64,000 bases of DNA, taken from NCBI GenBank assembly GCA_945897465.1, contig CAMDFK010000004.1, positions 1-64,000 on the forward strand, in the 5' to 3' direction. Under the pieces are notes generated by a model. The model did not search any database, was not told where the DNA came from, and saw only the letters and a program-made list of their open reading frames with translations. Position numbers and translations under genes: made by a program. The stretch is from Limnohabitans sp. Rim8 (lineage in GTDB: Bacteria > Pseudomonadota > Gammaproteobacteria > Burkholderiales > Burkholderiaceae_C). Positions 25,037-28,319 of this stretch are shown here, one piece after another; the stretch's first letter is position 1; the number at the start of each line of letters is the position of its first letter.

Positions 25037-25119
25037 CAAGGGCTGGTGCTTCAGGCGCTCCTTGACATTTCCCATTGAACAACCAAGTTATTTTTCACTT
25101 ACCCCTCCTGGAGACTCTC

Positions 25120-26547
<1,428 letters not shown>

Positions 26548-26592
26548 TTGAGTTTTTGATTGGACTGCTGCCTCTGCTTCGTTGTGGGGGCA

Positions 26593-26670
26593 GCAGTTGA
26601 CAGAGGAAGGGGCGGGTTCCTCATACTGGGTTACCAGAAATCGTCACCCGCCCCTTCCCCTGTCAACTGC
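26593..26670. repeat. Box hairpin element, copy 1
   Basis: Bases 26593-26617 pair with 26646-26670: 25 positions, one mismatch. The 28-nt loop holds CCTCATA, then a small hairpin CTGG-GTTA-CCAG, then AAATCG. Both orientation and geometry match copy 2. It begins 46 bases after the boxB stop. No T run follows, so it is not a standard terminator. Confidence 0.85.
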
Positions 26671-26741
26671 ATGGGGTTTGTTGAGCGTCTGTTGGTGGCT
26701 GTGTGGCTGGTCGTTTCTATGTTCTGCCTTGAGTGGAGGCG

Positions 26742-26819
26742 GTCATTGAAATGGCAAGGGGCGGGTTCCTCATAACGGGGTACCGAAAATCGTCACCCGC
26801 CCCTTGCCCTTTGAATGAC
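26742..26819. repeat. Box hairpin element, copy 2
   Basis: Bases 26742-26766 pair with 26795-26819: 25 positions, two mismatches, with the same 28-nt loop length as copy 1. The loop again reads CCTCATA, a small hairpin (CGG-GGTA-CCG), then AAATCG. The lower stem sequence is unrelated to that of copy 1 but still pairs, so pairing rather than sequence is conserved. Confidence 0.85.
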
Positions 26820-26878
26820 ATGGGTGAGCTGAGCGATCAGGGTCCCAGTAGACTCTGAGCGTTGAATCAGGCACAGAG

Positions 26879-26954
26879 CGACGGAAAGGCTTGGGGCCGG
26901 GCACCGATTTTCCGGTACTCCGTATGAGGTGCCCGGCCCCAAGCCATTCCGTTG
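26879..26954. repeat. Box hairpin element, copy 3 (inverted)
   Basis: Bases 26879-26903 pair with 26930-26954: 25 positions, one mismatch and one G-T pair, around a 26-nt loop. Read on the minus strand, the loop shows CCTCATA, a small hairpin (CGG-AGTA-CCG) and AAATCG, so this copy is inverted relative to copies 1 and 2. The inner stem is GGGGCCGGGC type instead of GGGGCGGG. It ends 51 bases before boxA. Confidence 0.83.
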
Positions 26955-27005
26955 CGGTCCTCGCAGACCAGAGACACATAACGCCAAATACAAGAGAGTC
27001 AAGAC

Positions 27006-28319
27006 ATGAGTACCGAAGCGACGCTGATCAAACAACACTTGATCGACCCGGAAATCTGCATCCGCTGCAACACCTGCGAAGCGATCTGTCCGGTGGGTGC
27101 GATCACCCATGACTCGCTCAACTACGTGGTCAAAGCCGACGTCTGCAACGGTTGCATGGACTGCATCTCGCCATGCCCGACAGGCTCGATTGACAACTGG
27201 CGCATGGTGCCCAAGGCCAAGGCCTACAGCATCGAAGAACAACTCAAGTGGTACGACCTGCCCGCTGAACTGAGCGCCGAAGAGTTGGCTGCAGCGGGTG
27301 GCGTGGCTGATACCGCACAAGAAGAAGCACAAACGGCTGTGCAAGCGGCGGCAGCGTCCTCGGCTTCAGCCGTCAGCTCCGCCACCGCCTCGGGCTTCAA
27401 CTCAGCGCAATTCGGCGCCACCATCCCCCCTTGGTCTGCCGCCCACGCCTACACCAACTTGTATGGACCTAAGGCGCAAGACAAAACCATCACCGCCACG
27501 GTCACCGGCAACTTGCGCGTGACCGAAGTGGGCCAACAAGCAGGCCAGCAAGACTACGACACCCACCACATCGTGCTCGACTTTGGCAGCATGCCTTTCC
27601 CGGTGCTCGAAGGCCAGTCGATCGGCATCATCCCGCCGGGTGTGGACGCCAACGGCAAGCCGCACCATGCACGTCAGTATTCGATTGCCAGCCCCCGCAA
27701 CGGCGAGCGTCCCGGCCACAACAACCTGTCGCTGACCATCAAGCGCGTGCTCGAAGACCACGACGGCAAACCTGTGCGCGGCGTGGCTTCTAACTTCATG
27801 TGCGACCTGAATGTGGGTGAAAAAGTGCAGGTGATCGGGCCGTTTGGCGCGAGCTTCTTGATGCCCAACCACCCCAAGAGCAACATCGTCATGATCTGCA
27901 CCGGCACCGGTTCTGCACCCATGCGGGCCATGACCGAATGGCGCCGCCGCCTGCGGGCCAGCGGCAAGTTTGAAGGTGGCAAACTGATGCTGTTCTTTGG
28001 GGCCCGCACGCCCGCTGAGCTGCCTTACTTCGGGCCACTCAACAACCTGCCCAAAGACTTCATCGACACAGAGTTCGCGTTCTCACGCGAAGTGGGTAAA
28101 CCCAAGCGTTATGTGCAAGACGCCATGCGTGATCGTGCGGCCGACATTGCACTGCAACTCAAAGACCCCAACACCTGTTTTTATGTGTGTGGCTTGAAAA
28201 GCATGGAAGAGGGTGTGGTCATGGCCTTGCGAGACATCGCGCAAAACGCCGGGCTCGACTGGGACAGCGTGGGCGCTGCACTCAAAAAAGAAGGCCGTCT
28301 GCACCTCGAAACCTATTGA
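27006..28319 (+). CDS. boxA: Benzoyl-CoA 2,3-epoxidase, reductase subunit
   Basis: Passes electrons from NADPH through FAD and iron-sulfur clusters to BoxB. The N-terminus carries two 4Fe-4S ferredoxin motifs, with cysteines at 18, 21, 24, 28 and at 47, 50, 53, 57. An Ala-rich linker (about 85-140) leads to a ferredoxin-NADP reductase-like domain with [13 protein letters not shown] (FAD), [13 protein letters not shown] (nucleotide) and a C-terminal aromatic (TY). The 437-residue length is slightly more than characterised BoxA, mostly in the linker. It is separated from boxB by a 458-base gap with three hairpins. Confidence 0.94.

Follow-up and report, generated by a model that had tools for sequence, protein, structure and literature searches.

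Dispersed Hairpins with a Fixed Internal Loop and Nearly Free Stems between boxB and boxA of Limnohabitans

The gap between boxB and boxA, the genes for two subunits of benzoyl-CoA 2,3-epoxidase in Limnohabitans sp. Rim8, contains three hairpins that are probably copies of a dispersed, non-autonomous, REP-like mobile palindrome of Comamonadaceae-type bacteria, which would be read as a folded single strand. The family to which they belong is a set of interspersed palindromic elements, unusual in its fixed internal loop, its free stems and the signature that it carries of the strand that folds. The evidence comes from the architecture and covariation of the hairpins, from their distribution in other genomes, from orthologous sites with and without them, and from the mismatches within their stems.

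The Gap between boxB and boxA

The window, by which we mean the whole stretch of 64,000 nucleotides that was analyzed, carries boxB and boxA with 458 bases between them (26548-27005, the boxB stop being at 26547 and the boxA start at 27006), and the identity of both genes is backed by equivalog models. The features are as follows.

25075-26547, plus strand: boxB, benzoyl-CoA 2,3-epoxidase subunit (TIGR03225, E 2e-270; open reading frame as listed, start codon predicted)
26565-26596, plus strand: small hairpin CTGCTGCCTC...GGGGGCAGCAG, directly 3' of the boxB stop, read from the sequence
26593-26670, minus strand: hairpin 1, arms 26593-26617/26646-26670 (25 nt, 96%), motif CCTCATA...AAATCG on the plus strand at 26619-26643
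26742-26819, minus strand: hairpin 2, arms 26742-26766/26795-26819 (25 nt, 92%), motif on the plus strand at 26768
26820-26877, no strand: spacer of hairpins 2 and 3, 58 nt
26878-26955, plus strand: hairpin 3, arms 26878-26905/26928-26955 (28 nt, 93%), motif on the minus strand at 26905
27006-28319, plus strand: boxA, benzoyl-CoA 2,3-epoxidase subunit (TIGR03224, E 9e-219)

An earlier note on this DNA had described three palindromic elements of one design within the gap, and inverted repeats indeed lie at these places; the top score in the gap is 22, whereas 100 dinucleotide shuffles averaged 6.3 and never exceeded 10. The motif CCTCATA-N-AAATCG has three matches in the window, against 0 expected from 100 shuffles. 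The third copy is inverted, as had been claimed, because its motif at 26905 is on the minus strand while those at 26619 and 26768 are on the plus strand. Since the motif of hairpin 1 is on the plus strand, the better-folding strand of this hairpin is the minus strand, antisense to boxBA. Hairpin 2 has the same orientation and forms the left partner of a +/- pair, the right partner of which is hairpin 3, where the better-folding strand is the plus strand and hence that of the boxBA mRNA; the set at boxBA is thus composed of one single + hairpin followed by one +/- pair. The 3' side of the small hairpin shares positions 26593-26596 with the stem of hairpin 1, so that full folding of the two should be mutually exclusive. 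In several outgroup species the corresponding place after boxB is taken by another small hairpin (GAGATCT...AGATCTC, seen by eye).

Anatomy and Covariation of the Hairpins

Across the family, the hairpin is 76 nt long and follows a common plan: an outer stem of about 25 bp whose sequence varies almost freely, then a fixed internal loop (CCTCATA / AAATCG) and an inner hairpin. Pairing is bimodal among the 265 distinct motif matches, 235 of which form 17 or more of the 24 outer stem pairs, with the remainder forming a separate low group. Other subfamilies share the internal loop and the outer stem while having a different inner hairpin; most hairpins of one of these, g15, received low scores since the pattern ended at an inner match, and their stems were assessed by eye. 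Pairing drops from 0.84 to 0.47 past the 25th position, and the logo of the stem base in 62 hairpins reaches at most 0.62 bit per position in the outermost stem bases, where GCG...CGC is weakly favored, and does not exceed 0.31 bit further out. In what follows, the strand reading CGATTT...TATGAGG is called the S strand and the CCTCATA strand the top strand. The loop CGATTT...TATGAGG is invariant, in part because it served as the search pattern, and on the S strand it can be read by hand as tandem G.A pairs beside T.T. A k-turn reading was dropped, since the internal loop, again by hand, is symmetric.

The stems were said in the earlier note to drift in sequence while still pairing, which was taken as a mark of selection for folding or of a mobile palindrome family. 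Further copies and covariation were both found, and the latter was measured in 54 non-redundant hairpins drawn from 186, all of one register, with a loop of length 25 and no fewer than 18 pairs, a set that is partly selected for pairing. In this set 89.4% of the cells are paired, against 56.6% in shuffles and 34-45% with slid partners; the cells with two-sided changes number 525, against 157 and 96-144, respectively; and the covariation score is 0.744 against 0.160 in shuffles. The covariation is therefore strong across the family and supports selection for folding. A two-sided change also occurs at 25 of the 26 outer pairs, but the great diversity of the columns leaves two of the five measures, the number of two-sided pairs (27 versus 24.7) and that of pair types (82 versus 84), scarcely distinguishable from shuffles, and these count against reading the hairpins as a mobile element.

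A Dispersed Family

The genome of strain Rim8 itself has nine exact matches to CCTCATA-N(6-18)-AAATCG, against 0 for the reversed-pattern control, and 14 hairpins by covariance model; its total is at least 17 when two on contig C36 and one well-paired hairpin on contig C3 are added. Among them are one pair within uvrA, another between rhlE-like and ybeY-like genes (gene names by eye) and two single hairpins that flank a superoxide dismutase-like gene, sodB-like by eye, the upstream one + and the downstream one - (L261, G000:C28, 1788-2752). In another genome, G087, the two hairpins close to the same superoxide dismutase-like gene (L267) share one orientation. Elsewhere, too, hairpins adjoin unrelated genes. 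Among 133 units, with gene contexts assigned by a simple open reading frame rule, 72 lie between tandem genes, 27 between convergent and 10 between divergent genes, 10 are intragenic and 14 are at a contig edge. Opposed pairs predominate in the order of 114 neighbors (+- 100, ++ 9, -- 5), with spacers of variable length; two such spacers (L084 and L085) carry another common repeat (AAATAAATGGGGTCAGATCAACATTAATTT).

How far does the family extend? Motif matches occur in 135 of 399 genomes of the home family, many of these being single matches that resemble chance, and one genome, G064, has 56 matches against 0 in the control. An exact loop scan of named genomes gave at least 119 stretches, and the 80 listed belong to Limnohabitans, Rhodoferax, Polaromonas, Curvibacter and other Comamonadaceae, Burkholderiales or betaproteobacterial bins; one of the matches listed is labelled Singulisphaera and is possibly from a mixed bin. 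An order-wide search with the covariance model R1, an undercount since it scored 16 candidates per genome, matched 5 of 300 genomes, four of the home family and one outside it. The match of the latter (G477, E 1e-11) lies in a locus, L241, that shows no motif hairpin. The pattern search of the same order matched 137 of 300 genomes, with a reversed control that is nonzero outside the home family, where the places among the matches listed resemble chance and the inner hairpin is not repeated. Viral contigs gave zero exact matches to two loop patterns, plasmids zero BLAST matches to the array of the window, and plasmids and phages zero BLAST matches to the pair of one further locus (L040). The literature, searched by loop letters and key words, returned no paper reporting the CCTCATA/AAATCG loop.

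Insertion, Loss and Recombination at Orthologous Sites

A scan with a boxA match in 53 of 60 genomes of the genus provided 50 boxBA loci. In a first set of 30, four loci are cut off, so the gap was measured in 26. These 26 Limnohabitans loci have gaps of 261-554 nt with three hairpins (13 loci), two (12) or one (1), and it is hairpin 2 that is missing from the two-hairpin species. The six measured outgroup loci are hairpin-free, with gaps of 31-49 nt (the ruler adds about 18 nt), and the hairpin-free species are more distant congeners, with BoxA identity of 72-76%. Such short, hairpin-free gaps in distant congeners indicate that the block was inserted. The 20 further loci (L218-L237), which include the six outgroup loci just mentioned, comprise four with two hairpins, two with a decayed single hairpin, two with remnants and 12 with none, decay and remnants being judged by eye. 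In one locus, L189, a hybrid hairpin joins the 5' arm of hairpin 1 to the 3' arm of hairpin 2 and is a recombination product.

The second site with orthologs is uvrA, which was followed in 30 loci from 48 of 60 genomes with a match. Twelve have the pair in frame, eight have one hairpin (one of them on a truncated contig), one has an altered insert and nine have the short form. The pair of our own genome is placed as follows.

L268 (G000:C14), 2000-2206: uvrA hairpin pair, read through in frame

Together, the many dispersed copies, the covariation, the insert-free sites and the in-frame copies in uvrA bear out the suggestion of a mobile palindrome family. As to when the movement took place, three relatives supplied 30 loci with 54 motif places for comparison with our genome, and 25 of the loci correspond to its own hairpin loci; movement within Limnohabitans is therefore probably old and seems to have been rare recently, which weighs against a mobile element to some extent. 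No insertion was seen that was both recent and had a defined target or duplication, and the insert-free sites are in diverged species.

Which Strand Folds

The mismatches within the stems are strongly asymmetric. Read on the CCTCATA strand of 128 hairpins, they comprise 205 A.C and 58 T.C against 16 G.T and 8 A.G, the remainder being 12 C.C, 3 G.G, 6 A.A and 6 T.T; on the S strand the equivalents are mostly G.T(U), G.A and G.G, which are the more stable mismatches. Consistently, the S strand is the more stable in 117 of the 128 hairpins with RNA energies and in 107 with DNA energies, and the stems alone favor it by 112 versus 11 and 113 versus 12, respectively, with p-values that are overstated because the hairpins are related.

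Does this bias derive from transcription of the neighboring genes? In tandem-gene contexts the ratio of A.C to G.T is 56:7 where the S strand is sense (41 hairpins) and 66:6 where it is antisense (38 hairpins; Fisher p 0.77). Because the bias is equal in the two situations, selection on the boxBA mRNA is not its source; the bias arose in the element itself, either as DNA or in an RNA stage of its spread, and not by local transcription. In the orthologous copies at boxBA and uvrA the bias is weaker, which speaks against a mobile element: with both sites summed, distinct A.C:G.T events are 14:5 in antisense and 18:6 in sense, and when all mismatch classes are divided by whether the S strand has a G in the mismatch or not, the ratios are 23:15 and 25:8.

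Alternative Explanations

The palindromes might also be kept by mutation itself, with template switching or cruciform processing correcting imperfect copies and no selection for folding, a possibility to which we give rather less than even weight. In genome G064, 132 within-family comparisons of hairpins (13 units) contain 421 cells with two-sided and 231 with one-sided changes, so that the arms change in concert, either through selection on source copies or through template switching; the excess is what correction would produce. Loops also flip inside otherwise matching stems. At a site whose orthologs were compared in five species, L404 and L406 carry the loop in the opposite orientation to L407, L408 and L409 although the arms match, and L070 differs from L079 in the same way. 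A survey of 293 hairpins in 45 groups found 17 flipped and 1731 unflipped comparisons, with 449 ambiguous ones left out; five of the 45 groups have a flip, some at an arm identity of only 0.73, and two sites are well supported. Moreover, both hairpin tips at the boxBA locus L223 are gone with short palindromes remaining, although an assembly error is possible there. Against this explanation, simple correction predicts neither strand-biased mismatches that track the stability of one strand nor a fixed loop. Such a process can act alongside the spread of a mobile element, and the confidence that we place in the two therefore overlaps.

A second alternative concerns the operon itself: whatever their origin, the hairpins of the array could now serve in mRNA processing or stability and set the levels of BoxB and BoxA, a proposal of the earlier note which we regard as somewhat doubtful. 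Over 25 species the mean pairwise identity of the hairpin arms is 0.855-0.929, above that of the spacer (0.714), of the flanks (0.70-0.76) and of the presumably neutral third codon positions of boxA (0.742; first plus second, 0.944). Two-sided Watson-Crick changes occur in 7 of 25 pairs in hairpin 1, 2 of 25 in hairpin 2 and 16 of 25 in hairpin 3, the one whose better-folding strand is the mRNA, a contrast that is rough because hairpin 2 was scored on 13 copies only (hairpin 1 on 30, hairpin 3 on 29). In L221 and L224, as read from their sequences, the stem is kept despite a decayed loop. This conservation in place, together with the covariation, permits either a domesticated role or conversion between copies; it fits local function or conversion as well as it fits a mobile element, and a later local role of the hairpins in boxBA is possible on these comparisons. 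The folding bias of the whole family, however, is as strong where the hairpins are antisense to genes and so ignores the direction of transcription; hairpins also lie beside unrelated genes and within uvrA, and the operon of outgroup species has none. A regulator specific to boxBA is ruled out as the general explanation, the family being dispersed.

The third alternative is a REP/REPIN system moved by a host RAYT, a Y1 tyrosine transposase, which appears improbable. A REP is a short palindrome of 20-40 bp with a short stem, and the GTAG/CGTC REPs form opposed pairs, prefer tandem and convergent intergenic places and have intragenic cases that include uvrA (PMC3733652). Our hairpins resemble them in being dispersed palindromes, in their opposed pairs (+- 100/114), in their preference of context, mostly intergenic, and in the cases within genes such as uvrA. 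Most motif-bearing genomes also have a RAYT-like gene of about 230 amino acids. The differences are that the hairpins here, of 76 nt, have 25-bp stems of free sequence, against 6-9 bp for most GTAG stems (PMC3733652), a fixed internal loop, no clear terminal tag (the logo of 62 hairpins shows no strongly conserved terminal tetranucleotide) and no linked Y1 gene. A search with PF01797 in genome sets hand-picked from the home-family scan found Y1_Tnp genes in all 16 genomes that carry the motif and in 19 of 24 that lack it. The 22 Y1_Tnp loci, which were up to 3.3 kb long, contained no motif hairpins. With Y1 genes common where the motif is absent and no hairpin in their loci, the link to RAYT is rejected on present evidence. 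A RAYT-like Y1 protein of about 230 amino acids, mostly single-copy (L310-L318 and others), is widespread in the home family with no motif hairpins nearby.

The earlier suggestion of a non-autonomous element spread by a host transposase thus stands for its first part, a dispersed mobile family, while no transposase has been identified, a point that also burdens the mobile-element reading that we favor. Among the genes that lie between hairpins in the fetched loci, none belongs to a family that suggested itself as the mover. A DNA methyltransferase-like open reading frame lies between opposed hairpins 1.9 kb apart (L105, 5518-7406) and a short BrnA-like one between opposed hairpins 1.1 kb apart (L119, 3016-4121), both labelled by eye.

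Relation to Other Known Systems

Integron attC sites are used as a folded bottom strand and keep their structure as the stem sequence varies; their core boxes (R/L) have the consensus RYYYAAC/GTTRRRY. Our hairpins share with them a structure maintained over a varying stem and one folded strand, but their fixed motif is an internal loop and they are dispersed and not in cassette arrays. The lack of R/L core boxes at the stem base in the hairpin logo speaks against an attC site. An intrinsic terminator is excluded as well, given the single match in the gap, which is at chance level (0.6 expected) and not at any hairpin base, and the absence of a T run after the hairpins that had already been pointed out. 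Rfam 15 has zero families matching the window at gathering score, and a permissive search of the gap gave miRNA or sRNA models only, far below their cut-offs. Regarding the features of DNA transposon MITEs, no element-linked transposase was seen, and the insert-free sites are too diverged for a target-site duplication to be read.

The families of Rickettsia palindromic elements (RPE) are conserved in sequence, which would set them apart from the free stems found here. The likeness lies in palindromes inserted in protein genes (PMC3733652), which is what the in-frame uvrA insertion and the relatives lacking the insert show in our 30 loci.

The nearest named repeat that we found in the group is the beta-proteobacterial repeat element (BRE), which may partially overlap with the hairpin family. 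According to PMC3110155, BREs measure about 75-91 bp, are mostly intergenic with some within genes, vary in copy number and occur in Bordetella, Polaromonas (29 copies in JS666), Rhodoferax and Delftia; they are described there as tandem repeats with well conserved sequence. By that description only, they are alike in size, betaproteobacterial hosts and mostly intergenic placement, and unlike in being tandem and conserved in sequence where the stems of the hairpins are free. None of four motif words is present in the main text of the BRE paper. If BRE were the same family, the novelty of the present one would shrink to its structure and strand signature.

A Possible Mechanism and Its Implications

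In evolutionary terms, the probable history of the three hairpins could be the following. The element would spread when an enzyme reads its folded S strand, either as single-stranded DNA or in the form of an RNA copy; the enzyme would gauge the internal loop and the length of the stem while ignoring stem sequence. It would have entered the operon spacer in the ancestor of one Limnohabitans clade, after which the array at boxBA would have shifted between two and three hairpins by recombination between copies. Extrusion of the DNA or switching of template would be expected to yield arms that change together and loops that flip, and any effect on the boxBA mRNA would have arisen later.

More tentatively, and at odds that we would not put above one in three, the element may belong to a distinct kind of mobile DNA that is read by structure: a trans-acting enzyme would recognize the tandem-G.A internal loop atop a 25-bp hairpin of one strand and ignore the sequence of the stem, so that copies could drift and yet stay substrates, an attC-like logic outside integrons, in which either strand of a pair would bear the recognized fold at its 3' end.

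Since the stems of these palindromes carry almost no conserved sequence, the family is easily missed by sequence-based repeat finders. Its strand-specific wobble signature can serve generally to tell which strand of a palindrome folds and whether transcription is the cause. If it is true that a protein reads the fold, the hairpins would represent a new system of structure-guided DNA mobility or processing in common freshwater bacteria.
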